Shown here piece after piece: positions 6,301 through 62,300 of a DNA stretch of 64,000 nucleotides. This DNA comes from Eublepharis macularius (Eukaryota; Chordata; Lepidosauria; Squamata; Eublepharidae). The DNA is taken from assembly GCF_028583425.1 (NCBI RefSeq), contig NC_072807.1:30943001-31007000 (forward strand). The letters run 5' to 3'. Within the stretch, counting starts at the first letter, position 1. Every line of letters begins with the position of its first letter. The notes under the pieces were generated by a model. The model did not search any database. It saw only the letters and a program-made list of their open reading frames with translations, and was not told the DNA's origin. The translations under genes and the position numbers were made by a program.

Positions 6301-9300
6301 ATTTGGGACGGCCTCAGGACAGCCAAATATCTGAAGCAAGAAACAGGCCCTGTGTTGCCCCTGCCCGAAGGGAGGCGAATTCTAAAGCGCCTCTGATCTC
6401 AATCACATAGTCTGCTCTTAGATTACCTCCTCAGAAGAAGCAAAACTGAGACAGGCTGAGATGCAGAGGGAAACATTAGTACACAACAAATCAACAGAAA
6501 GAGGGGGACATTAGCCATGCTGAACAAGACGCGCCAGGGAGAATTTTGCAAAGGAATCCCACGCCTCGATGACCACCAGCAACATTTGCTCAAGATTCTT
6601 TCCAACATAACAGCGCAAGAAGCCTCAGCATTCGCAGCTCTCAAAAGGGGTTTTGTCTATAGAGTGACGTGAAATTCCCAGAGGAGTTAGCCGTGTTAGT
6701 CTGTAGTAGCGAAATCAATTCCCAAACAGCATTAAGAAACTGAACAAGAAGCAAACTAGAAGAGAGTTTTGTGTGTGCATGTAAAACTAGGCATGTAGAA
6801 ACAAAAATAAATTAAAATTGCAGCCCCATCCCATCTTCCCCTTCCCCCAGCTATTGGATACAGGATGAGAATGAGGAGACTGGGGAGTATGGAAGAGGTA
6901 CAAGTGGCAGCAAGGTTCCCGGGCTGGAGGGTGGGGAGGGAACTACGGATGGGGGAAGAGGATAGCTGTATTCACAACTCCCTCCTGAGGGGGAGAGAAT
7001 GTTGTCTGCTGCAGAGAACAGGATGGAGAAGGAATCATAACTGATCTTCCCCTCTTCTAATCCTAAACTTCATCGGAGAGGGAAATGCTACATTATTTAG
7101 AGCAGCGACGTTCACACCGTGGCTCACAGAAAGCCATATTCACAATTATCATCAACCAAAAGAGCTGCATTTCCTTCCATTTCTGGCATGAGGCCAGGCC
7201 TGCATCTCAGGGAGGCTCACAGCTTACCCATTCTTCTGGCGGCAATTGTTTCAAGGAGGGAATCACCTGTCAACCACAAGTCCCACGTTGATGTTCAAAC
7301 AGTTATTAATCTTCCTGCACTTACAGGGTTTGGGAGTTTTAACTCCATTCCATTTTATCTAGTTTTCAATCATTACTTTGATCAATGTTTTTTGTTAACA
7401 TTTGCGTCTCATGTATTACTTTTTAGTCTCAGATGATAACGGTCTATTTGCAATAAACTCCGCTGCTACTACGCAAGGCCCACCAAGCAAGGGCCTTAGC
7501 CGCTTTCCTGAAATGTGGGGCAGGTGCCACGCTGGAAACCAGTGCCCAGAAGAGCCACAAGTGGCATGTCAAAGAGCCACACATGGTGCCCGAGCCACTG
7601 AGTGAGTATCACTGCTCTAGAGTTTGGGCATTTGATGCTACTGAGTCAGACCATGGGTGAGATCCTCCTAACTGGAGACGCCTGAGAGTTCTGGCTCGGA
7701 CCTTCTACGCACCAACACACGCTCTGCCACTGAACTGCAACAGCTTCTGGTAAGGAGGGGACGTTTTTTTAAAGAGGGAGGGAGAAGTACTGACCACAGG
7801 AGCTGGCTGGAGAAGGTTTGGATTCACCAGGACTCCTGGCTCATCATATTTCTCTTCAGTGCCTCGTCTCGGCTTTGTCAAGGTACCTCTGTGAAGAGCT
7901 TCGATAGTTTCATCCAGTCTACAAGGACAAACAACCCATTTCACATTCTCTGCAAATCATCCCACCAACTTTCACCCTATGTTATAGTATATTAATGGAT
8001 AGATTCTGCCTGTGAAGGGTACCGATGTGGCATCTTCAAGGGAAACGGCAGCTCAGGTAACAGGACTAGTAAAGTGGATGATCCCCCTTAGGCAATCTGA
8101 AGACCTGCTGGCCATTATTTATTTGTTTGTTTGTTTGTTTAATCAAATTTATACCCCGCCCTTCCCGTGAACAGGCTCAGGGCAGCTAACAACATATCAT
8201 ATAATTAAAACCATATACATATCTTAAAAACCATAAAAACAATACAAACAACTGGCGCCATTAATGCAGGCCTGGACAAATTTTATTTGGGAACAGAAGG
8301 CAGTTCAAAAATTTAGCAGCCAGACTCATATTTCATCTTTCAGGTTTATGTATGACGATATTTTCTAGTTACTGCCACCACAAAAACTATTAGGTGGCAC
8401 AACGAAATGTCTAGGCGCCCACCATAACACCTGGGATTTTGCAGGCCCAGCATTAATTTGGGAGCAGAAAAGACCCACCGCTGCCTTGAGTACGCGGCCC
8501 AAAGGAAACGAAACAATCCCCAAAATGAAAATCTTAGGGTCCAAAGCTGGAAACCAGGACAAGTAGGCAGAGTTTGGAAATGTTATGCAACCGGTTACCC
8601 AAGTTAACCAGAACACCCCAATAGGAAAAGCTGTTTGAGGAAAAAGTGAAAAAGACCATTCATGGTGGATCAACTGCCGCCATCCATGAAGGCTACATAG
8701 TCTTGGGACAATGCACCTCTGGTTATCATAAGCTGGGACCAGAAGGGGGTTGTCTCCATTGCACAATGCTCCTGAGCTTTGCAGCTTCGATTCATTGGTA
8801 TCGGAAGACAGAAGGCAGGGCCTGAGAGATCTGGACCTGATCCATGAAAACAATTCCTTTATTCTCGTGTCTTAAGGGGAAGAGGGCCAAGGAAGGCATC
8901 TATGGACTAGCCCAATGGTGCTCTTCAGACACGAGGTCGCAGTTGACACTTCAGACTTCAATGTGACCTGTGCACACCCCTGAAAGGAACGGAACATATT
9001 TCTGTGCGGTGCTTTTAGGATGTGCTGGACCGCTTTGCTCAATCCCTGCGGCTCCACAATTCAGACACTGTTTTGCTTCACTTCAGGCTTTTACATTCAT
9101 CACGGGGAGCAGATGCAGGAAGCTACCTCCTGGGAGGTGCATCTGTTCCTGTTCCTTTTTCCCTGCCTGTGCAGTTGACTGTGCAGTTGACTGCTGCCTG
9201 TGCAGTTGACTGCGGCATCACAGAAGAGAAGGGAGCAGGGAACGGGCCATAAATACTAAGAGTAAATTGGATGTTCAGAAGCTCCATTTCTGTGTGCTCT

Positions 9301-12300: not shown

Positions 12301-15300
12301 CGCCTCCAGCCACCTACTGTTATCTAGACAAGTCACGCTCAGTACCTTGTTTTGTCAAACTCCAGCAATTTGTCCTTGTGTTTCACTGCCATCTCCAGAC
12401 CTGCCTTGAGCCGAGCCTCTTGACGGGGAAGCAAGTCCTTGCTGCTGTCTTCCACCTTCCCGGAATTTTCAGTGCCTGGGAGGCAAAGAGGTGCAACTCA
12501 TGGTCTGCTTTGGGCACACCAACAGGGAAGCCCACTTTGCCTGGAATGGACCGCACAGCATGTAATAGCTCCGTTTTATCCCATCCTTCTTCCAAAGCAG
12601 CTTGGGGATGGCATATATGGTTCTCTGTTCCTGCATTTTATCCTCATGACCATCCCACTGAGCAAGAGTGAATGGACACAGGCATCACCGGCCCAAGGTC
12701 ACTCAACAAGCTTTGGAGCCGAATGAAGAACTGACCCTTGCACAAGTTGGGAGCCTGCAAAGCGGGGCGGCGGGGAGGGGGATGGCAGCCTTGCAAACTG
12801 GATATTTTCAGCACCCTTTTAGGCATTTGTAAGACAGGATCACTTCATTTTAAAACTTTATAAGATGGTGTGGGAACCCACCCTCACTTTCATAAGAGGT
12901 ACGAACCTCCAAGGAGTTTCTTCAGCAGCTTCTGGCTTTTGTTGGAATCACGCTGCAGGATGTCCTGCTCCTCTTTTGTGCACACCTGTGCGGGGGGAAA
13001 AGGAAGAGCACGGGTCTGAGAATAAGCTGCTTGAACAACTAGGAGGCGGCTCTCCTCACGCACAAGCACGAGAGTGTGAACCAGTAGGATACTGTCAGCC
13101 TACGGATTCCCCTAGCCTAATCCAACCCTACCTAAGCAGAGTGGCAGCGGTTCTCCGGGGTATTGCTTAGAGGTCTTCTCCAGGCCTACTACTGGAGATC
13201 AGGAGACAATCTGGGACTTTCTGCATGCAAGGCAAGTGTTTATTTATTAATTAAAATATTAATATCCTACCTTTCCTCACTGGTCAAGACAACTTTACCA
13301 CTGAACTGTTGCTCTTCTCAATAAATGTGTCCTTACTGCCTTTACCAACATGCAACAACAGTGGACAGCAACATCAAAGACACGCAAAGAAGAGTAGCTG
13401 GTTACTCTACAGTACAATCCTATGGAGAGTCGCACCCTCCTCCTAAGTCTCTTGACTTGGATTTATAAGGGAGTCGCTCTGCTTGGGAATGGCACTGTCA
13501 GAAGGGACCTAGAGACCAGCCAAAGGTCTGATCTTTATCGGTTCCTTATGTTTTGCAAGGCCTCTCAAGGTAATTCATCATTACAAACATTGCATAACTA
13601 GGGAAAGACTAATGCATACCGAGAGAAAAAGTCAAGGCTTAGATTCCAGATATACACAAAGCAGGGCTACAACAGGGACAGGAAAGCTGCCTGATGAAAA
13701 GTAGTTCCTTATCTCTGGACAAATCCAAAGCTAAAAAGAAATAAATCTTGTCCCTTTTCCCAGAGCAGTAAGAAACCACTAATCACAGCTGACCCTGTGC
13801 AGAACCTGTTACAGCTAAGCAAAGAAAAGGCACGAGCATAAGGCGGTAGCGTACCAGATTGCCGCAAAATAAGCAAGGCCCAGAGCCCTCTTGTTCACAG
13901 ACTATGCGCCCGCATGTCAGGCAGTTGTTGATGAGCTTGTGCTTCTGGGCCAGGCACTCGCATGAGTGGCGCCCAGGGAGCATGACAGTCAGCTTGTCTT
14001 GCCCTTCCTTCGTGTACAAGCTGACGTATTTCGCCTTCTTCTTGGAGGAACCGCTGCCGCTGTTTAACTCCTGGGCCTAATTTGACACAGAAACAAACAA
14101 ACAAAAAAGTTTCAAGGAACAACTGGAAAAGGAAACAGCCGAACTAGGATTCGCCATTTGGGGGGTTTACATAAGGATTGTGGATGTTTGTATCAGAGTG
14201 AAATAAAAAACACAGCCACCAAACCACGGCCTGAAAGCAGACTACAATAGTGGATTGTAGCTGGTATACAAACCACAGCTTGGACAAAGAGCGGTATAGT
14301 GTGCCTTCAGGTTTCATGTTTTAAGACTACTTGGGAAGGCTGAATAACCAAAAGAGAAAGAAATGTGAAGCAGGAGAAATAATCATTCTGGCAGCTTCCC
14401 CGAGTGCTCCTCTGTCCCTCCTTCAGCCATATCTCCCCTCCCAGCCACCTACTAGGACTGCTTTCAAGTTCAAGAAAATGACTGCCTGGAGATCTGATAA
14501 GCGAGCTGCTGCCGCAGCACAAGTGTTTCATCCATCATATTAAAAGCATTCGTGACTGAATGCAGTTATATGGGAAGACACTGCTCATGTGGAAGGGACA
14601 ACAAAAGTAGGGGGGTCAGAGTGCTGGACTAGCAGTGCAGAGGCCTGGGTTCCAATCTTTATTAGCCTAAGCTACACAGGACTGCTGTGAGGATAAAAGA
14701 AGAACCACAGTCACTACACGGAGCCCCCTGGAGCAGGATAAGAACATGATATAGAGGGGAGGGCAGGACTGAGCAGCTTGGAAGAGCAGCAGAGGATTCC
14801 GGCAGAAGGTGGGCAAGGCACACAATTGCCAACATTTTGTTTTGTGTGTGTGTCTGGGACATAAACTACTGCCTGGCACTCAAACCATGGTTAGCCTAAA
14901 CCACAGTTTGTTGTTACGACCAAACCACACTGATGTACGAGCCTGTCTATGTCTGTTGGGAGGTTGGTGGCCAGCGGTGGACTACTTGTGAAAGGAAGAT
15001 GGCATTTAAAAGCTGAATGTGTTGGAAAGACTCTTCTGTGGGAAAGGAAAAGGGAGTACATGGTATGAGTTTGGTTATTTGGAGAGTCTCCAATGCAAGG
15101 GCCGGAGTCTCTGATGAGAGTAGTATGGGTGGTGGTTGGAAAGAAAAGTAGGTAGAGAGATGTGCTACGGTAGGAATCTGGACTTGGTTTCACACAATGG
15201 CCCTGTTGAGACTTTCGTAAGTGTTCTTCTCTTCTTTCCAAAAATGTTTTATACATCTTTTTTCCTACAAATGGATCTGAACAAACTGAAAGAGCAGTGC

Positions 15301-18300
15301 ACTCATTTTGCAATTAACATGAACGGAACCAATTAACTGTAATTTGCAGAATCTCAGTTGTGGAGACCTTGTTCAGCCACACGGCTATGAGCCTGGGGTT
15401 AAAGAGTTACTGTGCATTATTTTGTTGCTACATTAGCTAAGTTTGTCTCTTGTTACGAAAAGGGGAGGAAAGGTTTCTGGGAGAAAAGTATATGAACAGG
15501 CCTCCAGAAAGACCTTGAGACAAGGAGTCAGTGAAACAGCTGGACTAAGATAAAATAGATTACGCAGCCTTGGGTTTCTTTAAAGCTCTAAAGCAGGCAG
15601 CACACCCTGACTTTGCATGTACTACAATTTATTTCAACCCTGCAAATGGGTAAGACCCACAGCTTGCCTGTACCCCAATATCCTTTGCTCTGACCCCCAC
15701 CTGGTGGAACAGCCTGACTGATGAGGTCTGGAAAGCTTCCACGCTACTATTATTCTACAGAATGGGCAAAACGGAGTGGTTCAGGAAGGCATTTTTATAA
15801 AGGGATTGCGATACTGTTTTAATGTTTGTGGAACTTTTCTAAGAAGTTTTGTTGTACTTTATTGCATTGGTTTTATTGTATCGTCTTTTGTAATTCGCCT
15901 TGAGTCTCTGCAAGAAAGGCAGAGCACAAATGAAGCAAGGATGACCGTTAGCAAAAAATATATCCAGGAAAACAGCTGACAGTGTATTCTATGACCTGGA
16001 CTACTTTTTTACTTTAGCTTTTCATACTAATTCTTTGAAATCCATATAAGAAAAGCCTGGGTCAGAGGTAACTCTGAAGTCACAACTGGATGCTACATGA
16101 ATGAGCCTGGAGGAGATACAGACATGTGCCCCCCTCCCAATCCAGCAACTGTCATGAGCTAAGAAATTTTCAAGCAAACATTTGAAGCAGCAAACTACAG
16201 CATGCGCTTATGCATCTACCAAGATTGCAAGTCCCATATATTCTTGGTTTGCATTGGCCCAATCAATGAAAAAAGCCAACAATTTCCCCCAAACAAGTAA
16301 TTAATCACCTTGCAGAATACAAGGGAAGAGGGGGCAAGAAAGCACAAACCTTCCCCAGGCTTTATCTAGCACACAGCAGTATATGTGAACGAATAAATGG
16401 GATTGGCGCATGCTCACGAATACACCTCTTCGTCATGTGTGGACTATCACAGACAAGACTCCAACACAGCTTGCCATCTGTGCATCTTACCAATCCAGTA
16501 TGACAAAGGGTGAGAATCTGTGATTCTTGCAACAGCTGCGCCCTCTCTATCCCCCTTACTGACAATACAATGGCTGCTTTGAGAGTATACAGTAAAAACT
16601 TACCTTCAAAACCTTTTCTTTTAAAGTTTAAAAAGCACCCACAAAGCAAACAGCAAACGTACCCACCTTGGCTAAATCAAGCGGAGTTTTTACTTCCTCT
16701 ACCAGCTGATTGGTTTCAATATGAACCGGTGCTTCCTGCTTGTTCCTCCCTTTGCGCCGTCCCCTCTTGGCTTGGTCTCCTGACCGAGGAGCTTCTAACG
16801 TATCTATATAGAAGGGAACATATAAAGGTTGTACAGGAGAAGAGTGGGAAAGACCACAACAGCGTCTCTTCCCTCACTTTCCTTGGAATGCCTAGGTAAG
16901 CAACAATGCTCGGTAATGACATCATCACGCTTTTGTTTAGCCACACCCCTGCCTCACATTGCTGGCCGTGAGCCACAAATGCAGAGCAACATGCAAGCAC
17001 AATGATGTCAGGTCACACGCTGCCATTTGCTTCAACTCTGTGGGAAAGAGAGATGTGGAATAGCAGTCGCTCTATCAGTGCAATCCTCAGCAGAGTTATA
17101 CCCTTCTAAACCTATCGACGTCAATGGATGTAGAAGGGTGTAACAGTAGGACTGTACAGTAGGCATCTCGTAATTGCTAGGTAAGCCAAGAGAATACTAG
17201 TAAAGCTTGGGGAAATATTGAGAGGAGCCGAGCTCTTCCTTCATAAAAAAAATTATTCCAATGGACAAAAAAAGTGAGACAATAGAAAATATCACAAAGG
17301 GACAAATCCCATCATTTATCATTCCATATTGTTATAAAGACAATCCAACTCTCAATAAATCTACCTGAGCGTATGCCAGCAAGGCTAAGACTCATCTGCT
17401 GATATGGAGCTGATAAGAAACACTTTCAACTCATCACTCCTGCCACCAGCACTCTTCAGTATGGCCTCAAAGCCCAGCCCCGAGGGAGTCACTGCCAGGA
17501 ACTACACCCAATTCAAGTTTGAGTTAATTCTTTTTTCCATAGACATAATTCTATGGGAATCAGCGGTCTTCCAATAAATAGTGGACTGGTTTTTATATTA
17601 CAGATAAATAGCTGCTCTGCGGATTTTTCCCTTCCGCTTACCATCTTTTTTCCGATAGAGAGGCAATGGGTCAGATGTTGTGAGCTCACAGGACCTTTGC
17701 CATCTGGCTACAAGCTCATCCACAAACTTTCTCTTCTTGCCATCTGTCCCTTGGACTAGGTCAGCAACGTATTCCCGGATCTCCTCCTCATTCTCAATAG
17801 ATAAGATGTATCTGAAAAGGGCAGAGGAGAGGCTTATAGGAGAGTTTTCCTACAGAACAAAAGTTAATATTCTCTCTTCTGATGTTCTTCACCTTCCTTC
17901 TTGAGGCACAATTTACACAAGGAAACAATTGTAGCACAGCAGCAATGTGTACGGCTGCATGGGACAAGAAGGTAACAGACTACAACAGCAGTTTTCAAAC
18001 CACTCGTCAGGGACCTTCTGGTCAGTTGTGTTCCTCCTGCTGGTCATGAGATTCTATTTATTTTAATTCTCTGCATATTATAGAAATAGTAGCCATCTAT
18101 GCAGAAAACCTGTCAAGTATGCTGGTCTGCTGGCTTTTAATTGTGAAAAAGTCTCATCTAATACTATGGTTCTGTCATACTGTTTTAGAAAGGGAGACAG
18201 ACTGGATATTTTGCAGCATAGCCTTTAAAGTGTCTTGACTATATTCTGGTAGAGTTCAAACTCTCATTCTACCACAAAGTTTGCTGGGTGACTTTGGGTG

Positions 18301-23307: not shown

Positions 23308-23600
23308 CAGGGCTTTTTTTCCGGGAAAAGAGGTGGTGGAATTCAAGACCGCGCAATGACATCACTTTGAGTTTTTTAAAGTATAAATTGCCCTCGGCGA
23401 AAATGGTCACATGGCCGGTGGCCCCACCCACTGATCTCCAGACAGAGGGGAGTTTAGATTGCCCTCCACTCCGGCAGCACGGAGGGCAATCTAAACTCCC
23501 CTCTGTCTGGAGATCAGGGGGCAGGGCCACCGGCCATGTGACCATTTTTAAGAGGTGCCGGAACTCTGTTCCACCGCGTTCCTGCTGAAAAAAAGCCCTG
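23308..23600. mobile_element. MITE-A copy 2, hAT-like foldback element
   Basis: 293 bp starting cagggctttttttcc and ending gaaaaaaagccctg, flanked by a perfect 8-bp duplication ggtaagac (23300-23307, 23601-23608). Long inner arms with gaggggagtttagattgccc and its complement make it an almost complete hairpin. Confidence 0.87.
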
Positions 23601-23874
23601 GGTAAGACTAAGAAAGCATGCTTGGACCAAGTTCACCCAGTGGGCATCAGGGCAGAGTGGCATTTTGAACCTGGGTCCTGGTCTGACACTAACTACTACA
23701 CCACAGTGTCTTGTGCTCTATAATGCACAGAAACAAGAATGCATTAGATGTGTTTTTAAGACTTTCTCAGGTCTGGGAGAACCTATAAGGCTGACCAGTA
23801 AACAAAGGATGCAGTCCTAAACATACTTACAAAGGGAATAAGCTCCATTCAGCACAGTGGAACTTGCTTCTGAA

Positions 23875-24133
23875 CAGGGCTTTTTTCTGGGAAAAGAAGT
23901 GGTGGAACTCAGTGGGTTGCCCTCGGAGAAAATGGTCACATGGCTGGTGGCCCTGCCCCCTGGTCTCCAGACAAGAGGGGAGATGAGATTGCCCTCCACA
24001 CCACTGGAGCGGCGCAGAGGGCAATCTAAACTCCCCTCTGCCTGGAGACCAGGGGGTGGGGCCACCAGCCATGTGACCATTTCAAGAGGTTCCGGAACTC
24101 CGTTCCCCCGCATTCCCCCTGAAAAAAGCCCTG
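23875..24133. mobile_element. MITE-A copy 3, hAT-like foldback element
   Basis: 259 bp with the same termini, flanked by the perfect 8-bp duplication cttctgaa (23867-23874, 24134-24141). It sits in what looks like a palindromic MITE remnant on the left and abuts the DIRS element on the right with only three bases between. Confidence 0.87.
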
Positions 24134-24144
24134 CTTCTGAATAA

Positions 24145-24356
24145 AAACAGGGTTTCTCACCTGTAACTGTTGATCGTCGAGTCTCTTCTGTGCAGACACA
24201 CATTGGGACTGCGCAGGCGCAGGCCAGCCGCGGAAAAGATTTTTCTAGCTTTTAGAGATGTGAAGGGGACGTTCGGATCCACCGCGCATGCGCGCCGGTG
24301 TTCCCGCCAATTTTGAATGCATATATATCCGAACGTCCCCGACATTCCCTCAGTTC
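24145..24356. repeat. DIRS left inverted terminal repeat with 28-bp outer extension
   Basis: 184 bp (24173-24356) is the inverted counterpart of 29767-29950; the inner ~150 bp is identical and the outer ~30 bp differs. A further 28 bp (24145-24172) has no counterpart on the right arm but is present in the internal complementary region. Confidence 0.9.
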
Positions 24357-24414
24357 ACCTGAGCCGCCGGAGAAACTCAGAAACCAAGCACTCACAGCGG
24401 GGTAGGTGGGAGGG

Positions 24415-24510
24415 AATGTGTGTCTGCACAGAAGAGACTCGACGATCAACAGTTACAGGTGAGAAACCCTGTTTATCGTCTTCGTCCTTCTGTGCAGCCC
24501 CACATTGGGA
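24415..24510. repeat. DIRS internal complementary region
   Basis: 24415-24474 is the exact reverse complement of the left outer end 24145-24204 (60 of 60). 24475-24510 is the reverse complement of the right outer end 29915-29950 (35 of 36). The junction of the two halves is in gtttatcgtc at 24471-24480. This bipartite match is diagnostic of DIRS elements. Confidence 0.92.
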
Positions 24511-24550
24511 GAATAATTAGCATCTCACCAATGGGGGCGGGTGTGAGTGT

Positions 24551-26221
24551 CTACTGGAACAAAGAATGCAGGACAGCCGTGCCAACAGCTGATTCACGCC
24601 GTGCATTCACGTCCACAGAATAGTGTTTGATGAAAGTGTCTGCAGTGGACCATGTCGCAGCTTGGCAGACGTCCCGGAGCGGCACTCCTCGCAGGAAGGC
24701 AGCAGAAGCAGCTTGCACTCGAGTGGAATGAGCGGTAACCAACAAGGGACACTGGACTCCAGCATGCTGATAGCAAAGTTTAATTGTAGACACAATCCAG
24801 CGAGAGATGGACTGGGCAGAAGCAGGTGAGCCCTTGCGAGGGCCAGAGTAACACAAAAACAGGGCAGGAGATTTCCTGAAGCATTTGGTGCGATGTAAAT
24901 AAAACAATAAAGCACGCTTTACATCCAATGTGTGTAGTGCTCGTTCCCCTGGGGATGAGGGTGATGGAAAAAAGGAAGGGAGGACCACCTTTTGCTGTAG
25001 GTGAAATTTGGACACCACCTTGGGCAGAAATTCCATGCTAGTGTGGAGCATGACCGTACCAGGGAAAAACTGCAGGAAGGGAGGGTCACACCTCAGAGCA
25101 GACAGCTCCCCAACACGCCTAGAGGACGTGACTGCCACCAGAAAGGCCACCTTTTGAGTGAGTAAAGGCAAGGGACAGGTGGAAAGGGGCTCGAAGGGCC
25201 GGAGCATCAGCTGGGAGAGTACCAGGGACAGACTCCACTGAGGAATCGGCGGGACCCTAGGAGGGAAGGTCTTGAACAGGCCCTTTAGGAACTGCTTGGA
25301 AAGCCAGTGAGTAAAAACGGTCTTTCCATCAATCTGCTCATGAAAAGCAGAGATCGCAGCCATGTGGACTTTAATGCTGGAGAAGGCAAGACCCTGTGAG
25401 CACAAGTATAGGAGGTAGTCGAGAATCACAGGCAAAGGGCAATCAAAGGGAGAGACCCCTTTTGAGGCCAGCCACTGGGAAAAACGTGACCACTTCCTCT
25501 GGTAGGATAGCCTGGTGGATGGCTTCCGGGCATTGAGAATGACTTTAAGAACCTCCGAGGAGAGGCCTACTCCGGAGCGCACAGGAGCCAGGCAGCCAGG
25601 CTCAGAACCGCCACATTGTGGTGTCTGACCCCGTCCCTGGTCAATAGGTCCGGGGCCGGCGGAAGTGCTAGGCACCGTCCCCGTGAAAGGGAGAGTAAGA
25701 GCGGGAACCAATCCTGGCGGGGCCACTGTGGGGCAATCAGGATACAGTGGGTGTTGAAGGCCCTTATCCTGGAGAGGACCTTGTGCAGGAGTGGAAAGGG
25801 CGGGAAGGCATAAAAGAGCCCCGGGGACCAGGGTATCTGAAAAGCATCCCCTAGGGAGCGACGGCCAATTCCGGCCCGGGAGCAGAACAGCGGGGCCTGC
25901 TTGTTTTGGGCCGTGGCGAAGAGGTCGATGAGTGGCGTGCCCCATGAGTGGAAGACCTGGTGGAGGTAAACCCTGTTGAGGGACCACTCGTGCTGAGGTA
26001 GAAACACCCTGCTCAGTGTGTCTGCTGCGGTGTTGAGCTCCCCGGCAATATGAACGGCCCTGGGAAGGACGTTGTTGACCATGGCCCACTTCCAGAGAGT
26101 CGTTGCTTCCCTGCAGAGCTTGAGCGAGACCGTTCCTCCCTCCTTGTTGAGGTAATAGCAGGCTGTGGTATTGTCCGACAGGACCTGAACCCTCCTGTTC
26201 CGAACGACATCTGCAAAACAA
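24551..26221 (-). mobile_element. DIRS tyrosine recombinase region (fossil)
   Basis: The frame carries a phage-integrase-like C-terminal domain with the family signatures SSRRVGELSAL, HSTRVQA (HxxR) and a late Tyr in FIKHYSVD, preceded by an N-terminal core-binding-like segment (RKPSTRLSYQRKWSRF). The upstream part of the frame overlaps the end of the reverse transcriptase region in another frame, as is usual in DIRS. The recombinase proper probably occupies about 24551-25650. Confidence 0.88.
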
Positions 26222-27465
26222 GCAAGGGAGTAACGGATCGCTCTAAGCTCCAAAAGGTTTATGTGCATGGATGCCTCAGTTGGGGACCAGACACCTTGGG
26301 CTGAGAGCTGCCCACAGCGCCCTCCCCATCCCAAGTTGGAGGCGTCAGTAAAGACGGTGACCTCTGCCAGGAAAGGGCCAAAAGGACAACCTTCGGACAG
26401 GTTCTCCGGGACAGTCCACCAGGCCAGGGAGCGCTGCACCACCCTGGGGATGGAGAATTTCTGATGCTGGCCCATAGTGAGGGGGTTGTACCTCCGGACG
26501 AACCAGTTTTGCAGAGGCCTCATATGCAGGCGTGCGAAAAAAACTACCCCTGTGGAGGAGGCCATAAGGCCCAACAACGTTTGGATCAAAAGGGCAGTCT
26601 GGAAACGGTTATGCAGGAAATGATGGGCTAAGGAGGAAAGCCTGGTCAGGCGATCGGGGGGCAGGAAGGCTCTGCCCCGGGGAGAGTCGAGATGAACCCC
26701 AATAAACCTAATGGCTGTGCCAGGAGTAAGGATGGACTTATCTCCATTAACCACCAAGCCCAACCTAGCTAGTACGGACAAGGTGAGGGCAATATGGGCC
26801 TGGAGAGAGTCAGCTGAGGGTCCCACCAGGAGCCAGTCATCCAGGTATGGGTAGATAAAGCATCCCCTGGACCGTAGATATGCCACCACGGTGGCCATGC
26901 ACTTCGTGAAGACCCTGGGTGCAGAGGCCAGCCCAAAGGGCAACACCGTATATTCATACACAGAATCCCCATAGACAAACCGCAGGTACTTCCTGTGGCC
27001 CTCGAAAATGGAGATGTGGAAGTAGGCATCTTTCAAGTCTAGAATAGCTAGCCAAACGCCAACCTCCAGGAGCTCTATAACCCGTGCCAGGGTCAACATC
27101 CGAAATTTCTCAACCTTCAAATAGCTGTTGAGGCCCCTAAGGTCCAAAATGGGCCGGGAACCTCCATCCTTCTTATCCACCAGGAAATACCTCGAATAAA
27201 ATCCCCAAGGGGAAGTAGCGACATTGACCACCCGGACAGCACCTTTGTTCACCAACTCTATAACATTATTGTGTAACACAATATCACAACATGGAGAACA
27301 ACGGGGAGGGAGAGAAAGGGGAGGTGCATCAACAAATAACAATTTGTAACCATGGGCCACAATAGACAGGACCCAAGTGTCAGATGTAACAAGTTGCCAA
27401 CAGGGCAAAAAAGGCCGAAGCCTGTCCAAGAACCGGGCAGCAGAGGGAGTGTCCTCAGAGGCCAA
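25567..27465 (-). mobile_element. DIRS reverse transcriptase, RNase H and methyltransferase-like region (fossil)
   Basis: Reverse transcriptase motifs: WGFYSRYFLVDKKDG, LDLKDAYFHI, VLPFGLASAPRVF and YLDDWLL (about residue 207). RNase H-like block: VFTDASNLGWGG, LLELRAIRYSL, VQVLSDNTTACYYLN and AADTLSR. The downstream block with IDLFATAQNKQAPLF resembles the methyltransferase-like part typical of DIRS. Confidence 0.92.
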
Positions 27466-27486
27466 CAGGGGAGCGTTCAGGCTTAG

Positions 27487-29631
27487 TCAGAAGACCGAGG
27501 GCTTCTGCACCGAGGTCGAAGGCTTGGGCGAAGAGGGCTGTTGTCTGCCCTTGGACCGGCCAGAGCGCCTGGACGAATGACGCTGCTGGGTAGAATAGGA
27601 TCGGTGACCATAGGACTGGCCCGAGAAGAACCGCCCTTGACGCTGCTGGTAAGGCTGATAAGGGGTCTGGTAGGATCGGAACCGACCATAACGATACCTC
27701 GGACCCGACGGCTGAGCTGAGGGGGCGACTCCCAGGGACTTGGCCGTCTGCTGATTTTTCTTCATCAGGGAAAGGGATTCATCCGTCTTCTCCGAGAAGA
27801 GCTGGGGCCCCTCGAACGGGAAATCCTAAACTTTCGCCTTCTTCTCTGGCGGCAGGGCCGTGGACCGGAGCCAGGCGTGCCGACGCAGGACCACTGAAGT
27901 CGCCATCGCTCGCGCTGCAGAGTCGGCGGCGTCCTTGCCAGCTGTCATCTGCTGTTTTGACAGCTTCATGGCCTCGGCTTGGAGGGCCTTAACCAGGTGG
28001 CGGCGATCCTCCGGGAGGTCGGAGAGGTAAGAGGACAGCCTTCTCCACAGGAACAAATTATAGGACCCCATTATAGCTTGGAAATTTGCTATACGGAATC
28101 CCAAGGACGCGGACGAGTAGATCTTCCTGCCCATGCCATCTAGCTTCCTGCCTTCCCGGTCCGCCGGAGCCGAAGAGGAACCATATCGGAACCGAGCCTG
28201 ACCTTCCTCCGCCACGATGGAAGAGGGCTTAGGGTGAGTGAAGAGGTACGGGCAATCATCCTGCTTCAGGCGGTAGTACCGCTCGACCTTCTTTGCCGTC
28301 GGCGGCAGGGACGCCGGTGACTGCCAGAGCGCAAGGGCATTGTCAACGAAATCCTCCACCGGGGGGAACGCCACCGACGCGGGGGACCCAGAATACAGCG
28401 CCTCTAGCAGCTTGCTTTTGGGCTTGGAAGTCGTGGAGGAAACGTCTATCTCCAACGCAGCGGCCATCCTCACCATCTGCTCAGCGAACATTCTATAGTC
28501 GTCGTTTGGGGACGACGAACGAAGCTCACCCACGGTGTCATCCGGGGAAGGGTCAGAAGCCACATCCGAAGAGTATTCTGACGGGGAAGCCAGGCCCTCG
28601 TCATCCTCGGAATCTGAAAATTCTGCCGGCGTTTGGGTCGGAACCGAAGTCCGGCGATCAACTGGGGCTGAAGGATGAGGCGCAGGAACCGAGGAATGGA
28701 CCAGCACGCTAGCCGCAGGAGGAGCAGGCGCAGGGTGCACAATCGGCTGAGCCAGAACGGGAGGCTGCGGAACCGAAGGATGCTGCAGGAAGGGCACGGA
28801 CTGCTGGAACCAGGCCACAAAATCCTGCCAGGAGGCCATGTTCCCTACTCCCGGGACAGACTGGCAAGGAGGCAGAGGAGCGGGCACCGGGGCAGGCCAG
28901 CGAAATGATGCCGGAACCGACGAGGCGGACGGCATCGGAACGGAGGATTCCGAAGGCGCCGGGGCAGACGGCAGGGAACGCTCGAATGACTGATATGGTT
29001 CCGAAAAAGGCGGGAACGGCAGGAATTCCTCCGGAACCGACGGAGGAGGCGTGCGAGGAGGTGACGGGGTGTGGAGACTCACCACATCGTCAGCTATCAG
29101 GACCGGTCTGGGCGGAGTACCGGGAAGCACAGTTGGAGCCGGGGATGGAGCACGGCCCTTGGCTTTTGATTTGGCCTTGGCCTTTTTAGGCGGGGGCTCC
29201 GAAGAAGCCTCTGAGGCCGAAGTTTTGGTCGAGGTCTTCGATTTGGATGACGGACGCTTCTTGGCCTTCCGACTCGAAGGACGATCCACGGAACCGGAGT
29301 CAGATCGGGCCTCCGGAACGGGTTGCCCCGTCGGTTCCGATGGAAGCGGCTCTGGCGACTTACGAGACGGCGCCGGTGACGGAGCGGCGGAGCGGGGCCT
29401 ATCTCCCGATGAGCCCGATGGCTTGGGGGGGAGAAGGTTGGCATCCCACAAGAAGGCACGGAGCCTGGCCTTTCGATCGCTCCTCGCTTTCGGGGTGAAA
29501 GACATGCATACCGCACAACGCTCCACGACGTGCCCCTTGCCCAGGCAGATGAGACAGAGGTCATGGCCATCCGAGTGTGTCATTTTCGTTCCGCATTTCA
29601 GACACTTTTTAAATAAAGACGTCTGAGACAT
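27487..29631 (-). mobile_element. DIRS gag-like region (fossil)
   Basis: Begins at ATG 29631 with MSQTSLFKKCLKCGTKMTH and a Cys/His cluster (KCGTKM, CLICLGKGHVVERCAVC). A long Ser/Pro/Lys-rich low-complexity stretch and an acidic segment follow. The composition and place in the element match the DIRS first reading frame. This part is broken, with about one break. Confidence 0.8.
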
Positions 29632-29766
29632 TTTGAACGGTATCTCCCGACAGATGGACACAGGAAAACACCGAATAGCGGAAGAAAACGACCAAAGAAC
29701 TCCGAAGAGACGCTGAGAGACAACGAACGCTAGACAATAAGAACCTTTTCGACGGCGGCGAAAAAG

Positions 29767-29950
29767 GAACTGAGGGAATGTCGGGGACGTTCGGATATAT
29801 ATGCATTCAAAATTGGCGGGAACACCGGCGCGCATGCGCGGTGGATCCGAACGTCCCCTTCACATCTCTAAAAGCTAGAAAAATCTTTTCCGCGGCTGGC
29901 CTGCGCCTGCGCAGTCCCAATGTGGGGCTGCACAGGAGGACGAAGACGAT
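29767..29950. repeat. DIRS right inverted terminal repeat
   Basis: 184 bp starting at gaactgagggaatgtcgggg and ending gacgaagacgat, the inverted counterpart of 24173-24356. It is the upstream (5') end with respect to the reading frames. Confidence 0.9.
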
Positions 29951-32230
29951 CCATGTTTATGATCGTACTGTAAGTGCGCACTCTAGAATGTGCCATGACC
30001 ATATTCTAAAACCTTGAGCAGTGTATATTCAGACAGGAAGTGCTATGCCACTGATGCCTAAAAACTGAAGACAGGAAATGACTGTTAGATCGATGCCACT
30101 TAGAACGTTTTAAACGATGCACAACTAACCGCTAGTAGAGAAAGGTTGCTCTTTTTCTTGATGTGTCTGATTCAGCATAACTATATTTAGGTTCATATGG
30201 GAAAGTCCCTATGTATGAAAACGAAAGAATGTTGAACAAACATCACCCATCGAAATATACAGACTCCAATGGGAAAGCATTTGTGACGGGAAAGAATTGC
30301 ACTCCACTCAAGAGCTGGAGTTGCAAGAACTATTTTTAACAGGGTTTCCAACTGGCCACTAGAGGGAAAAAATAGTGCTTTTGATCACAGAGGTATGACC
30401 TGCAGTAATTAGCATAGGAATGTATTTTTAAAGATAAAGGCTCAACTACAAAGGTCAGTTTGTAAAGAGTTAATATTCTTTTCCTTACAAGGGTTTATAA
30501 TCTTTCATACACATATATTCTTAGAATGAATTAATAGTGCAAAGTGCCTTTTTGCAATCCCCCCTTCTTTTCTTCTCTATTGTTCAACTTTTGCTGAAAG
30601 CTGTTTTTCAGAGAGAGACAGAACAGCATAACTGGCCGAAAATGTTTCTCTTTTCTCAGTTGTTTAGGAAACTTAAGATAAGGCCACATTCTTTGAGCTA
30701 CTGTCTCACGAGAAGGGAGGAATAGATACAACACTTTTGATTCTAAGGTTTGGAAGTCAGCAAGAAGTGAGAAATTCAGAGTCAGCAAAGGATAGTGACC
30801 AAATAAGGGGAATGAAAAGGTCACATTGATCGCGAGACTAGTTAGAGAACTGAGAAGTAGCCAATTGAAACAACTGTAGAGATCAGATGTATGTAAAGGA
30901 CCAATTGCAAATTGTTCAGCAGGCAGTCCCTTTTGTATTAGAAAAATGTTTTTAAAACTGCTTGTAAGCTTTATGTTCTTTGGTACTCATGGCTTCTTTG
31001 AAAGCTGGGTACCCATACTGCAATATTCAATACAATCATTGAAAAGAAGCACTTGTCTGTCTCCTCCTTTTGCTCTACAGAATCTGGGTAAGGGCAGAAG
31101 GGCATTTTTGTGTAACAAGTTCATTGGCAATCCTGATTTCAAAGGTAAAATGTTGGTTTTTAAGGTGCCCCAGGACTCTTCTTTTTAAACGGAACTCAGA
31201 TTCTTTTCTTAAATTAAGATTAGGACAGAAATAAATTATCTCCTATTTGACTTGTGCTTATATCATCAAGTTATGTTGTCAGAGTCCTCCTATCTTTCCC
31301 CTATTTACATTACAGCTCAACCCCCCCTCTACAATCAAAGCACGTTTAATGCATTTGATGAAGTGTTATCTCTGGCCTATGACAGGCTTATGCCACAATC
31401 AACAAGTTAACCACAGCAGTCATTCTTGTTATCTTACCGCTGCAGAGGAACACAATTACTCTTCGGTTAATGGGACTAAAGTGGTTTGGAACCAATTAAG
31501 CTAGTTTAACACAATAATGGATGGGACTGTAAAAGCAATCTGCCTTAAACCACTTTAGGCCCATTGACTTCAATTGGCTTTAAATCCAATTACTCTGGTT
31601 GCATTTTGGGTTTGAATGGAACTGTTAATCTTTCCAGACAGATAGAGGGGAGAGCATTTAGCACCTGAAAGAGTCACCAACTCAGCAGAGATTTAGATAT
31701 GGCTAGAACCCTCTTGCTTAGGTGGCTGGTGTTATTGTAGCACACGTGTAAATTTTTTAAGCTGTTCTCCTCTTATTGAGAATACAGCCCTCCTAAGTGA
31801 CACCCTTTCTAAACCCTTCAATGGATTTAGAAGTGTGGAATTTGACTGTAAATTAGCAATCCTTGTACAATTCTTTGGTAATAAAGCTTGTTGAACACAG
31901 TGGGATTTGTACTGTGAAAACAGGTATCTCACAACAGGTAAATGGGTGACAGAGAGACCGTCTCTACCAGAAAAGCTACTTTCTATCTGCAGGGAGAAGT
32001 GTTCTCTCTCCCCACCCCATTTAAACATAGGGCCCCTTCGAAACTGCTATGCCTCAGTTTATTTCCCCATGACTCACGCTGTCATCCGCCTTGAGTCTCA
32101 GCAAGAAAGGTGGACTATACATTTATTGATTGTATTGGATGTATAGTCCCCCGTGAACAGGCTCAGACAATAAGCAATACACATAAAAAAATAAAATAAC
32201 GTAAATAAAGAACAAATTTCGGCTCCATAT
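29951..32230. other. TRIP4-PCLAF intergenic DNA, right part
   Basis: AT-rich DNA with no recognised gene. Degenerate palindromic-MITE fragments lie near 31545-31620 and 31790-31845, and a SINE-type tail near 32085-32200. From 30000 to 31500 nothing was recognised. Confidence 0.5.
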
Positions 32231-35800: not shown

Positions 35801-38800
35801 GTGGTTGGACATTCTTAGGATGTGTTGGCTACTTAACCTTTTTGAAGATGGAGAATCCCCAGTAACTTTGTCTTCCCATATGCACTCAGTTTTCTACACA
35901 TGAATGCATCTTTCAGATTTAAATGATGTCATCACAGGAAGATTTTTCTATTCACACTACATGCTTCTTCATTTATAAGCGTTACCACTTGCATTTATGA
36001 GTCGGTAGGTTGCCACCCCAGGGATCCACTTGAAGAATTCCAGGATGATTTCACATGATTTTTTTAGTCTAGCAATAGCATTTGCACTGTGCTCCCAGGA
36101 ATGGGATCTTTAGTGTCTGTTGGCTGCAGGTTTCAGAGAGCCAGTTTGGTGTAGTGGTTAAGAGAGCGGGACTCTAATCTGAAGAGCCGGGTTTGATTCC
36201 CCACTCCTCTACTTGAAGCCATCTGGGTGACCTTGGGTCAGTCCCAATTCTCTCACTCAGCCCCACCCACCTCCCAGGGTGTTTTGTTGTGGGGATAATA
36301 ACATACTTCGTAAACCGCTCTGAGTGGGTGTTAAGTCACCCTGGTATATAAATCGAATGCTATTGTTGTTATTATAAACCATCCCAAAGAATAACATTGT
36401 ATGCGTGTCTCTTGTTCTCCCTCAAAATAATGGCTTCTACAGTTTCTTTCAATAACAATGATTTGTAATATGGAACCACTGCAGCTCCACGGGATTGGTG
36501 TGGGGGGGGGGAACATTATAATGAATGAAAAAAATTGTTATACAACTGAGTATGTGGTAAGCCATTTCATGTAGATCAGGCCCCTGTCTCAGGACAGGAG
36601 ATTTTGTAAGTGTGGTCTTCAATATGTATTATATTGTGATCATTTGGGCATTGATATATTCCTAATTACCCTTTGCAGCAGAAAGCAAGTATGCAGGGGG
36701 CAATCCAGTTTGTGTGAGGCCCACGCCGTCCTGGCAGAAAGGAATCGGAGAGTTCTTCGGTCAGTCCTCAAAACGCTCAGAGAAGGAAAACCAGATCTTG
36801 GATGAAGAACCAGGATGCAGCGGAATAGGACAGCGTCGAAGAAAGTAAGAGCGGCCATCTCTTCGCCACATTATACCTTTTAGCAGGACCTGTTTGCCAC
36901 TTTCTCCAGTTGTGTGAAGGCCTCCCAGGGAAACTCTTTACCCAAATTCCTGAAAGAAGCCTTCCTAAGTTTTTCCTAGAAGTTACAGGCCACCTGTTCC
37001 TGGTAGAGATGAGATTGCCTACAGATTTTCCTGTTCTTCTCATCTATGCTGGCAACAGCTTAGAGCCTCAGTTTCTCTCTTTACTAAGTAGCATAACAAC
37101 AAGCATTGACTTGTGAGTCTCTGGCTGTGGCATGGCCACTTGGCAAAACTTGTCAGGTCATAGAAAACATGGACCTTTCCCCAGTACTAAATTTTAAGTG
37201 TGGGTTTTTTTTCTGATCAATATCACAAGTCGGTACAATTGTAAACATAACCAACTGGTGGGAAAATACAATGCCAATTACATACAGTCTCTAGAATGCA
37301 CGCAGGCATTCAGAAATGATTCATTGGAAGAATTGTAGAGAACAGTCTCTGCATACGCCTGCAGAAGTCAGCGTTTAGACAAGCCACGCCTACGGGTTTT
37401 GCCAGCATAGATTCTCCGCCCCGTTTCGTCCAGTCACTTTTTCATAGGCAATATTAATTCATAGCATTTCATTCACAAGTACACCACCATGTTGGTTAGC
37501 TCAGGACGGTCTGAAAACCCCATCAGGGATCGCCATACGCCAGTTATGACTTGAGGGCACTCCACCACAAGAGGCCACAAAGCTATTTTTTCTGTGACAG
37601 GTTAATACCGCTGCCCCTTGGGAATTATTCTGACCTGGGGAGGGGGTTAGGGCTATTGGGGATACTGTTGTACTTTCTCCACATCTGGAACATAAGACTG
37701 TCTCGAAGGTGTCTTGCTTTATTCCTTTTAATGGCTTTTTAAAAAAGGGTTCAATTGTTAGTTTCCAGGGCTAGGCAAGGCAATCTTCAGAAGGTGACTT
37801 ATGTGAAGATTAAATCACAGGAGCTCTGAAATGCTGATGTTGTTTCCGAGCTTATCTGACTTAATCAGTACATGAGAGAGGAAAGTTCCTGGCATTCACT
37901 TTCAAATGTATTGTTTGAGGCCATTTGTCACATCACAAAGGTTTCTCTTGTTTGTTTACGAGGGAGATGAGTCATCAGCTATGGAGTTTACTCCTTTCGT
38001 TTCAGAACACTTTTATACCTTCTGGGTGTGTCATTTCCAAATCCTTTTAAAACTCAACTCAAGATAAAAAGGCTGATTATCTATAATCTAGGACTGTTAA
38101 CGTTAGCCTCCTCCTAAATGGTGCGATTATTCTAACGGTGCAGTCATACGTAGAGTTTATTCTAGTGTAAGGCCATTGAAATCTGAGGGGATGAGCTCTG
38201 TATAGGATTGGACTGTGCATTTAGCTGGATTGGAAATGTGAGACGCCAAACTGCTTGTTCTAAAATAGACGGACAATCCATGTGGCTAACTGGGAGGTGT
38301 AGAATGTAGCTGTCTATCTAGAAAAGAGCAGCTCCGTCATGTATTTGTAGTGTTTTGGGTCTGGGATGCTGAGCATGCAGACAAGGAATCATTCTGTCTA
38401 TCTCATTTTAAAAATAGCCTCGAGAGTAAACTTAACACCACTGCTGCACCCCCTTGGAGGCCAGATTTAGTCTCCAATCTGCATTGTGGTATAGCATTGT
38501 GACCGGAAGACATCCACAGCATACAGTATTATAACATTGCTGTGCTGGGCAAACAGCAAATGGTATGCCGTGCAAGAGAGAAGATATTCTGGCTAGTAGG
38601 TGGGAAGAATTCAGCGTAACACACCAATGTAGCACACCTCCATTACTGCTCAGTTCTCCCCCTCCCCATCCTGGGAAATGGGACTTGAGTGAACATTACT
38701 TTAAAATACTGAATTTAAGTGCTGCCTTTGGGATTCAGGGATCCCCCACTAGCTGTAGAGCTTTTCTACCAGGATATTAATGGCCCCTTCTTTTTCTGCT

Positions 38801-59300: not shown

Positions 59301-62300
59301 GAACATTTGTTTCCTTTTTTAACTTTTACCATCACATTTCATGTGGATGCAAATAAGGAAGTGGGCAGTCAACTGGGGCTTAAAATCTTGAACCAAATAA
59401 TGAGGCAGAATAATAAGTACAGATTTCCTTAATAAAAATAAAAGCAAAATAACACACGTGGTTAACTAATGTTGGTGCCAGAGGCAGAGGACTGAAATAA
59501 TATTATCTCTCTGTCCCACTGGAATCACACACACACACACCAGCCTGCATGGTTTGTGAGTCGTGCATCTCAGAAACCAACTTTCCACATGTTGGCAGGG
59601 ACTGGTAGGGGAGGAGATCTCAGCAAAGATCTGCATCTTTTGCTGTCTGATCACTGGATTCAGCCTAGTGTCAAAATCGTTTCTTACATTAAAAAACATT
59701 CTTTTAATCTTCCGTTAACATTTAACGTTTTTTAAAATTACAAATCTTTTAAGGATTAATGAGGCAGATGGCTATTACCAGGCCTTAAATAATCATAGGA
59801 CTCACTGTTTTGCAAACTTTGGCTGCCCAAATAGTATCAGCACCTAAAAAAAAAAAGGCTATATCTATCTCATGCAGGCTTGGAGCATCACATTAAAGGT
59901 GTGGGATCAAGTTGCCCCAGACGATTTTTTGTTCTTTCAGTCTATGATACCTGTTTGAAATCCATTGCTCTAGATCTGTATTCTCTCCAACTGTGATCTA
60001 GGGAATTCTGGGTTTTCTTAGACTCTTTTCAGTATTTTCTCTATGAGAATATAATGCATGAAAGGCAAACTTAACTTTAATATACACTTCAGTATGGTGG
60101 ATTACAGATAAACATCCAATTGACAGATGTTTATAACTTTAGACATTTTTCAAAACGTATTTTAAAAAATTGCTTCTCTCCTCTGATAGATCACTCGAAT
60201 GGAATTGGTGCACTCAAAGAACCTCATTTATCGAGATGTCAAGCCAGAAAACTTCCTCATCGGCCGGCAAGGAAACAAGAAAGAGCATGTCATCCACATA
60301 ATAGACTTTGGGCTGGCCAAGGAGTACATTGATCCGGAAACACAAAAACACATCCCCTATCGGGAACACAAGAGTCTAACAGGAACTGCCAGATACATGT
60401 CTATCAACACACATCTTGGCAAAGGTCTGCTTTGTCTGACTTAATATCATCTGTGCTTCTTTGCATTACTGCTGTTCTGCATTGTTTATACAAGGAGAGC
60501 CTTATTTTTTAAGGCCTATCAAAATGAGAGAGTTTGGTAGGAAACAAATCTTTACTTTGTGAATAATTTTAAAATGAGAGAGAACAGAACATTAGATTTG
60601 AAGAGGACTTTTATGCACATGAAAATGAAAGGTTGGAGCAAAGTGGGTTAAGCGACTGTTAAGTGCTCCATAACTACACATTTATTTAGGATCTGCTTTT
60701 TGCTTATTTATTTATTTGCTTTACTTATAGTCCGCTTTCCCCAATAAGACTCAAGAGGGATTACACAGTGTAACCCAATGTAATCAATATAGAATTACAG
60801 AAATCTGGAATGAAGCATAAAGTATTCAACCATACAGAAAATAGTGTTTCAGAAGCATAAAAAAGCCGTGAGAGCAGGATAATACATATAGTGAAAAGAT
60901 TAACATAATATACACAGTGGTATAGTTTAGAGTCCTGCTCCCTTTAATCCTACATTGTCTGTTACTTGGCTCACTTCTTGCATAGTTCAGCTTTCCTAGA
61001 TTTCTGCCCTCCTGATCACACTTTGTTGTAGTTCACAAAACAGTGGTGAAGGGTATGCTCGTGTTTGTGTGTGTTTTTCAGAGCAAAGCCGGCGAGATGA
61101 CCTGGAAGCCCTTGGCCATATGTTCATGTACTTCCTTCGAGGCAGTTTGCCGTGGCAAGGCCTTAAGGTGAATACTAAAAGTGCACCTAGAATAAATTTT
61201 GCTCTGCCAGAAATCTGCTCTCCCATCTGAAACATCTTTCTTTTCGTCTTCTGCTTAACCTGGCGGTCTTGGGAGAGAACAGGGTGTCTTTGGACAGGGG
61301 CAGGCAGTTCAGGCCTGAAGTATAAGCTTGGAGAAAGAAGCCTTCCGGGGAGGCAGCGCTCAAGTACTGCTAAAAATCCTCTTTCCTGGAAGAGGAATGC
61401 TGAGCAGAGGTCATTCTTAGTGCCCTTGCCATATTGGTTTCAAGAGCACCTCCTGCTGCCTTCTTCTGGGAAAGATGGGAGATCAGGAACTGAGAGAAAA
61501 CTTGGTTTCTTTCTGTGTTTATATTCTGCTTTTTCAATGATGGAGTCTTGAAAATGTTGTGCAATGCTTAAAAATTATTATGTATTTATAGTCTACCGTT
61601 CTCACTGCAGTCCAAGGCGGATTACACAATGCAAGCGAAATGCAACATGATCAGCAGCTAGGACATTCATTAAACTATTTCTTCCCAAACATTTTAGCCC
61701 CTTCCTCCTAGAACAAGAGGCCAGCAGGGAGGAGCTAGATCCTTCTCTGCCTCTGAGCATGTTAGAGTTTGAATGGTGGGCCCTCAGCCCCTATCCTTCC
61801 AGGCAGGAGGACTTGAAAATCCCAAGAGTCCTTTTAGCTTAATAAAGACCTCCTGGTAGTGCTGTAACATTAAATAACAAACCTCTTTGTACTGTGCAGG
61901 CTGATACACTAAAAGAGAGATACCAGAAGATTGGGGACACAAAGAGGAACACTCCAATTGATGTTCTCTGTGAGAACTTCCCAGGTAAGTGTTGGACTGG
62001 GTGGCACCCTGTTGGTGTGAGATTCTTCCTTAAAATAGGCATATATCACTTTTTTTTCTAATCCCATCCGTCATAGTAAATTTGTATATTGACTGGAGAT
62101 ACTTTGAAAATTCAATATTAAAATACCGAAAACCTCTGACTTTCTCTGATACATTTAAATGAAAGGGACCACAGAAATAGGGATTTCATTTCCTTGAGAG
62201 GCTGCCGTGTATGGTCAGACTGCAGGTCTGCCTAGTGTATGCAAATTTTTTTTTTTACTAATTGCTGTATATGAATAGACTTGATACACTCCAGGTAAGA

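Follow-up and report, generated by a model that had tools for sequence, protein, structure and literature searches.

Our results indicate that, in a retrotransposon family of Eublepharis macularius, gag and reverse transcriptase (RT) share a single reading frame and are separated by one conserved UGA codon, which ribosomes may read through. The element concerned occupies positions 24145-29950, on the minus strand, of a stretch of 64,000 nucleotides (the window; assembly GCF_028583425.1, contig NC_072807.1, positions 30,943,001 to 31,007,000), and it is practically certain to be a DIRS1-like retrotransposon. We consider it quite probable that the element was copied recently within an abundant family of this class, which would make Gag-RT by readthrough of the UGA. 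Frameshifting is unneeded between gag and RT, which lie in one frame. The features at issue are the following.

27487-29631, minus strand: gag open reading frame (ORF), from an ATG at 29631 to the conserved TGA, interrupted by a TAG private to this copy
27484-27489, minus strand: TGA CTA, the gag stop (TGA at 27487-27489) and the next codon, a candidate readthrough site
25567-27486, minus strand: ORF for RT, ribonuclease H (RNase H) and a putative methyltransferase (MT), 639 amino acids, in the frame of gag, with no ATG before codon 130

The same arrangement, in which RT follows gag in frame, with no gap and a single UGA between them, was found in three families, A (that of the window), B and C. 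In family A, TGA is present in 41/41 sequences (the window, 20 other copies and 20 more distant pieces) and is followed by CTA in 40 of the 41. Unlike this UGA, the TAG inside gag is absent from the other copies. Family B, which is old and decayed (L020, L049-L062), has the UGA in 14 of 15 loci, the gag/RT place of L051 lacking it; UGA is followed by C in 12, by CTN in 11 and by CTA in one. In family C (L063-L068, L077), UGA is present in 7/7 and CGG follows it in 6/7, and the three RT ORFs that were examined whole are open over 630, 630 and 632 codons. The RT of family A is 54% identical to that of C over 627 amino acids, and 52-56% identical to that of B over 314-392; families A and C both contain near-identical copies with open frames. 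Genome patterns that left the stop codon free gave 133 matches for A and 713 for C, against 0 for backward controls, and TGA stood at every place among the matches listed; the patterns are no test of the codon after UGA, because they fix it. The UGA between gag and RT is a conserved boundary and not decay.

No ATG occurs in RT codons 1-129 in any of the 21 family A copies, and codon 130 is already inside the RT domain. These 129 codons are very likely translated, since they are constrained despite the missing ATG, with a ratio of nonsynonymous to synonymous polymorphism (pN/pS) of 0.21 and 12/8/18 variable sites at the three codon positions. In the set of mostly animal-virus readthrough stops given in PMC4132726, UGA is followed by CGG or CUA; the same source reports that UGA-CUA alone supports 1.5% readthrough, and that 12 nucleotides 3' of the stop sufficed for readthrough in four mammalian genes. 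A 3' RNA structure accompanies some such stops but is no defining requirement. UGA_CUA has also been described as selectively raising readthrough (PMC9841425). On the basis of family A and of the frame common to gag and RT, readthrough of the UGA to produce Gag-RT appears to be the likely route to RT. It is somewhat favoured, in addition, that vertebrate DIRS elements express RT as a Gag-RT fusion, separate families having settled on the leaky contexts of animal viruses, UGA CUA and UGA CGG.

Several observations weigh against readthrough. A purine is preferable just before the stop (PMC4132726), and here the preceding codon is TTC, which ends in a pyrimidine. A G-to-C change at the fourth base of the CUAG motif cut readthrough by more than half (PMC9841425), and the 31 distinct family A sequences that were aligned have a base other than G there. 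CTA occurs in only 1/15 of family B, and RT codons 1-40, taken alone, have no third-position excess (7/3/7), though their pN/pS is 0.23. In family A, the 120 nucleotides from the stop onward fold no better than shuffles (z +0.28); after the stop, two-sided changes were found in 0/26 pairs among the 31 distinct of 41 sequences, and a 7-pair stem at 6-12/66-72 is without covariation. Conservation within a family is weak evidence by itself, because the copies are close relatives, and all three families were sampled from one genome. In family C, moreover, an ATG is found at RT codon 59 in 3/3 ORFs and at codon 36 in two, and the shared ATG at codon 59 makes a separate RT start possible in that family.

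The UGA might instead be a plain gag terminator, with RT restarted downstream by reinitiation, by internal entry or from a non-AUG codon, for example the in-frame CUG at codon 3. The window does have an in-frame CTG at RT codon 3, the ATG at codon 59 is common to the three family C ORFs, two pieces of that family (L063, L064) carry an ATG at codon 3, and readthrough is itself deduced from sequence. However, the codon-3 ATG is absent from L065-L067 and L077, and codons 1-129 are constrained in family A, yet none of its 21 copies has an ATG there. Reinitiation needs neither a shared frame nor a gapless junction, whereas both are found in three families whose RTs are 52-56% identical to that of the window, and in families A and C the triplet after the UGA is CUA or CGG. 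A downstream restart of RT is therefore regarded as unlikely.

Splicing is used by other retroelements, and RT might be made from a spliced RNA in which the stop is removed or an upstream start is joined to RT. This possibility is compatible with every result of the analysis; however, it would leave the UGA of nearly every examined copy unexplained, and we judge it quite improbable.

If RT is indeed reached by readthrough, a single RNA would be translated into Gag, and a small share of ribosomes would pass the UGA (UGA CUA) to give, in the same frame, Gag-RT-RNase H, possibly with MT. The tyrosine recombinase (YR) would come from the overlapping -1 frame. RT would copy the RNA, the missing ends being rewritten from the internal complementary region (ICR), to form a putative circle with the junction CCCTG-TTT-ATCGTC, which the recombinase may insert into a similar short target without duplicating it. 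Readthrough would account for the translation of a DIRS pol ORF that has no early start codon, and would fix the ratio of Gag to RT. If confirmed, it would amount to a retrovirus-like Gag/Gag-Pol switch for DIRS elements and would help annotation, in which a copy may be counted as broken on account of its conserved UGA. It is the young and intact copies that expose this possible expression signal.

In gammaretroviruses, gag and pol are also in one frame, with a single stop, UAG, and a pseudoknot. The present element differs in having UGA, in that no structure is supported, and in carrying a tyrosine recombinase instead of an integrase. An in-frame coding extension behind UGA-CUA or UGA-CGG is described for animal viruses and for OPRL1, OPRK1, AQP4 and MAPK10 (PMC4132726, PMC9841425); unlike those cases, the junction here belongs to DIRS gag and RT, its fourth base in family A is other than G, no 3' structure is supported, and readthrough is predicted from sequence. 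No link between DIRS and readthrough appeared in the titles and abstract openings surveyed, a survey outside which the founding DIRS papers lie. In the available texts, 'stop codon' is absent from PMC3266345, 'readthrough' and 'stop codon' are absent from PMC6681497, 'frameshift' is absent from PMC5633606, and the lone 'read-through' of PMC12440569 concerns transcripts. Searches with the RT protein and the RT alignment in viral and genome contig collections found no relatives.

The assignment to the DIRS1-like class is based on the repeats, for which these coordinates apply.

24145-29950, minus strand: whole DIRS1-like element, 5806 nucleotides plus the junction trinucleotide, with bounds from the inverted terminal repeats (ITRs) and the ICR
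29767-29950, minus strand: left (5') ITR, from repeat comparison
24145-24356, minus strand: right (3') terminus, made of a right extension (about 24145-24172) and the right ITR up to 24356
24415-24510, minus strand: ICR, near the 3' end, its halves pairing with both ends of the element

The coding sense is that of the minus strand, and the bounds are the same in most of the 20 other copies compared. The inverted terminal arms (24172-24356 and 29767-29951) are identical at 176 of 185 positions, and the inner 148 nucleotides of the ITRs (24209-24356 and 29767-29914) at 148/148. One half of the ICR (24415-24474) matches the 3' end (24145-24204) at 60/60, the other (24475-24510) matches the 5' end (29915-29950) at 35/36, and the ICR is the sole match of the right extension of about 28 nucleotides. 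The two halves meet at the circle junction trinucleotide, 24472-24474 (plus-strand TTT, read as AAA in the sense of the element), and are 39 and 60 nucleotides long when this is counted in both. In 17 of the 20 other copies the ICR matches both ends, and neither half has more than one mismatch; in L009 and L024 it matches the 3' end only, the 5' end being missing or altered, and in the rearranged L012 it matches neither. No split direct repeats and no long terminal repeats were found in 23500-30600, the direct repeats there being short or part of the ITRs, the ICR or the flanking repeat.

The presence of ITRs, ICR and right extension, with neither split direct repeats nor long terminal repeats found, favours the DIRS1-like class. 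A PAT or Ngaro element might be considered, given that the MT domain here is putative; however, ITRs, ICR and right extension in the absence of split direct repeats are how PMC3266345 defines DIRS1-like elements, and membership of PAT or Ngaro is scarcely credible. The element is thus a new copy of an already known kind, and ordinary for that kind. An earlier note on this DNA, made from its letters, had proposed a DIRS element in canonical order with an RT motif, an RNase H-like block, a tyrosine recombinase bearing HSTR, and inverted and complementary repeats. The anatomy of ITRs, ICR, RT and tyrosine recombinase bears out the class and the order, and the repeats are as claimed, with exact coordinates; RT is confirmed by the matches described below, those of RNase H and of the recombinase being weak.

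DIRS1-like elements are abundant in Anolis, where 775 copies in 42 families have been reported (PMC3266345). AcDIRS2 of Anolis carolinensis (Table 3 of PMC3266345), compared by its published figures alone, resembles the present element in its AAA junction, in ICR lengths of 39-60, in a right extension of 28 (about 28 here) and in a long overlap of pol and YR, with a total length of 5997 against 5806; it differs in a conserved ITR of 136 against 148, and a divergent part of 26 against about 36. DIRS-1 of Dictyostelium likewise has ITRs, an ICR, gag, a pol with RT and RNase H, and an overlapping YR, and its published model includes a circular intermediate (PMC3266345, PMC5633606). In this comparison, what marks the present element is that one UGA separates gag from RT, with no change of frame.

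The three ORFs measure 677, 639 and 563 codons between stops, against a maximum of 345 when the element was dinucleotide-shuffled 300 times and read in three frames of the same strand. Within them, the following parts were recognised.

26689-27177, minus strand: RT domain (Pfam RVT_1, E=7.9e-20)
26137-26364, minus strand: RNase H-like domain (Pfam RT_RNaseH, 8.5e-4, below cut-off)
25567-26160, minus strand: putative MT region at the C-terminus of pol, where the pol of DIRS1 carries an MT domain
24551-26242, minus strand: YR ORF, in the -1 frame relative to RT, with its constrained part at 24551-25566

The YLDD motif of RT is in frame at 26836-26847. The nearest solved structure is the RT of Ty3 (4ol8, 2.4e-12); to our knowledge no DIRS RT is present in PDB, so this match is uninformative as to how the RT groups. 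The gag of turtle DIRS elements has been related to LAP2alpha (PMC4495291); the gag described here gave no significant match in Pfam or PDB, and no LAP2alpha match. The putative MT region (25567-26160) is 52% identical to that of family C and has no match in Pfam or PHROG, and its AlphaFold model (mean pLDDT 41.0) was too poor for a fold search, as was that of YR (40.5). In the case of YR, the HSTR motif lies at 24719-24730, and the matches are to Phage_int_SAM_1 (7.9e-4) and Phage_integrase (0.016) in Pfam, both below cut-off, to an integrase family in PHROG (6.2e-4) and, with the whole protein, to 17 Cre/Tre recombinase sequences in PDB (6e-4 to 3e-3). The Cre/Tre alignments cover both the N-terminal and the catalytic parts, each domain alone giving 0.8 or worse in the alignments shown. 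These matches are weak but concordant, and support a tyrosine recombinase in place of an integrase.

The family's own genome (2.24 Gb, 72 contigs) was searched with a 701-nucleotide RT probe, which gave 1375 first-look candidates; 25 of the 40 scored were at least 97% identical, the window included, and the 24 other places, 97-99% identical to the probe, are spread over many contigs. The window was compared in detail with 20 other copies from this one genome. It carries 9 private substitutions in 5806 nucleotides (0.16%, Poisson 95% range 0.07-0.29%), and a single misaligned copy hides a tenth private site, 29936. If a rate of 0.5-1e-9 substitutions per site per year is assumed, the insertion would be a few million years old, and it is very likely young. 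Gag carries the following break.

27826-27828, minus strand: private in-frame TAG in gag, a sense codon in 20/20 other copies, which arose from two adjacent private changes

Among the 20 other copies, six have the full length and, relative to the window, are free of stops and frameshifts in all three ORFs (gag, RT, YR); each of the remaining 14 has at least one break, truncation or in-frame deletion. Variable sites at the three codon positions number 107/78/278 in gag, 32/16/72 in RT outside the overlap and 25/27/74 in the YR-only part, with pN/pS of 0.14, 0.12 and 0.14, respectively. The stop in the gag of the window might be taken to indicate an old, dead fossil, intact by chance or through assembly collapse. 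This is very improbable, and already contradicted, given the 9 private substitutions, the 24 places 97-99% identical over the probe on many contigs, the open RT and YR frames and the variation at third positions. The earlier note's view of a young insertion with about one break holds, the break being the TAG, as the TGA at 27487-27489 is a conserved boundary; its label of 'fossil' is misleading, with six other copies intact and variation falling mostly at third codon positions. The note had deduced youth from the almost unchanged arms and internal region, and here the conclusion stands; but in the model of PMC3266345 every round of replication rebuilds the ends of DIRS elements from the ICR, so ITR and ICR identity is a weak clock, and the 9 private substitutions are the better measure.

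The C-terminal half of gag (28550-27751) is about 6-15% divergent from copies such as L013 and L016, and RT and YR are mostly 1-5% divergent. Since this part of gag diverges more than RT and YR, a single pol/YR seems to go with two lineages of gag, a pattern indicative of recombination among lineages of the element.

The overlap of RT and YR (26242-25567) has a pN/pS of 0.38 in the RT frame and 1.33 in the YR frame. As it is constrained in the former and unconstrained in the latter, the start of the functional recombinase is probably close to the stop of RT. With a -1 frameshift from RT to YR in view, one heptamer was noted within the overlap, C CCG GGG (window 25825), which is kept in 20 of 21 copies; it is not a classic slippery site, and the heptamers of family C differ from it. 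All 21 family A copies retain a YR-frame ATG at 25945, and in three family C sequences the YR frame is free of ATG over the stretch examined.

The DIRS model predicts insertion without target-site duplication and with a 3-bp junction (PMC3266345). In L020, a family A copy is nested in a DIRS element that is older and diverged (about 54% identity in RT), whose flanks, L020:1-1838 and 7359-8681, expose an empty site; it was through this nesting that families B and C were found. When the flanks are joined without the three 3'-junction nucleotides, they give KATIFCSLAGADPLSIEDAF, which is colinear with KAHTFCSRAGSDPLSIGDAF of family C, and when the three nucleotides are kept, there is one extra residue. 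Since the interrupted protein is restored once the three nucleotides are omitted, the nested insertion added the element and three nucleotides, with no duplication. This result, which concerns one sister copy and not that of the window, agrees with the prediction in PMC3266345.

Insertion sites were compared in the 15 of 21 copies, window included, in which both ends matched the probes, six being dropped. Position -1 is G in 12 of them, +4 and +5 are T in 14 and 15, respectively, and -8 is A in 12. Such sharing of bases outside the 3-bp core suggests that the recombinase recognises a longer target motif. The biased bases outside the core (in the window, from 29951-29953 and 24144 outward; 14 other copies) also include A at -9, and the insertion-site bases partly resemble the circle junction. 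By eye, the T-rich 3' flanks looked like splice acceptors, but a rough estimate put this resemblance near chance, and it was set aside.

With regard to the genomic setting, the element lies between TRIP4 and PCLAF, as the earlier note had placed it, Pfam matches on both sides bearing this out. To the left are minus-strand exons of TRIP4 (zf-C2HC5 at 13786-14076, TRI4_N at 17601-17849); to the right are PCLAF (PAF at 36666-36845) and a Pfam-matched kinase exon at 60190-60441, similar in sequence to CSNK1G1. No exon of TRIP4 or PCLAF was recognised inside the element, and Rfam gave 0 matches at gathering scores across the window. The element is flanked by a repeat (23500-24144) made of units of 44-48 nucleotides in direct and inverted order, with AAAAAAGCCCTG ends, which is probably another mobile or foldback repeat.

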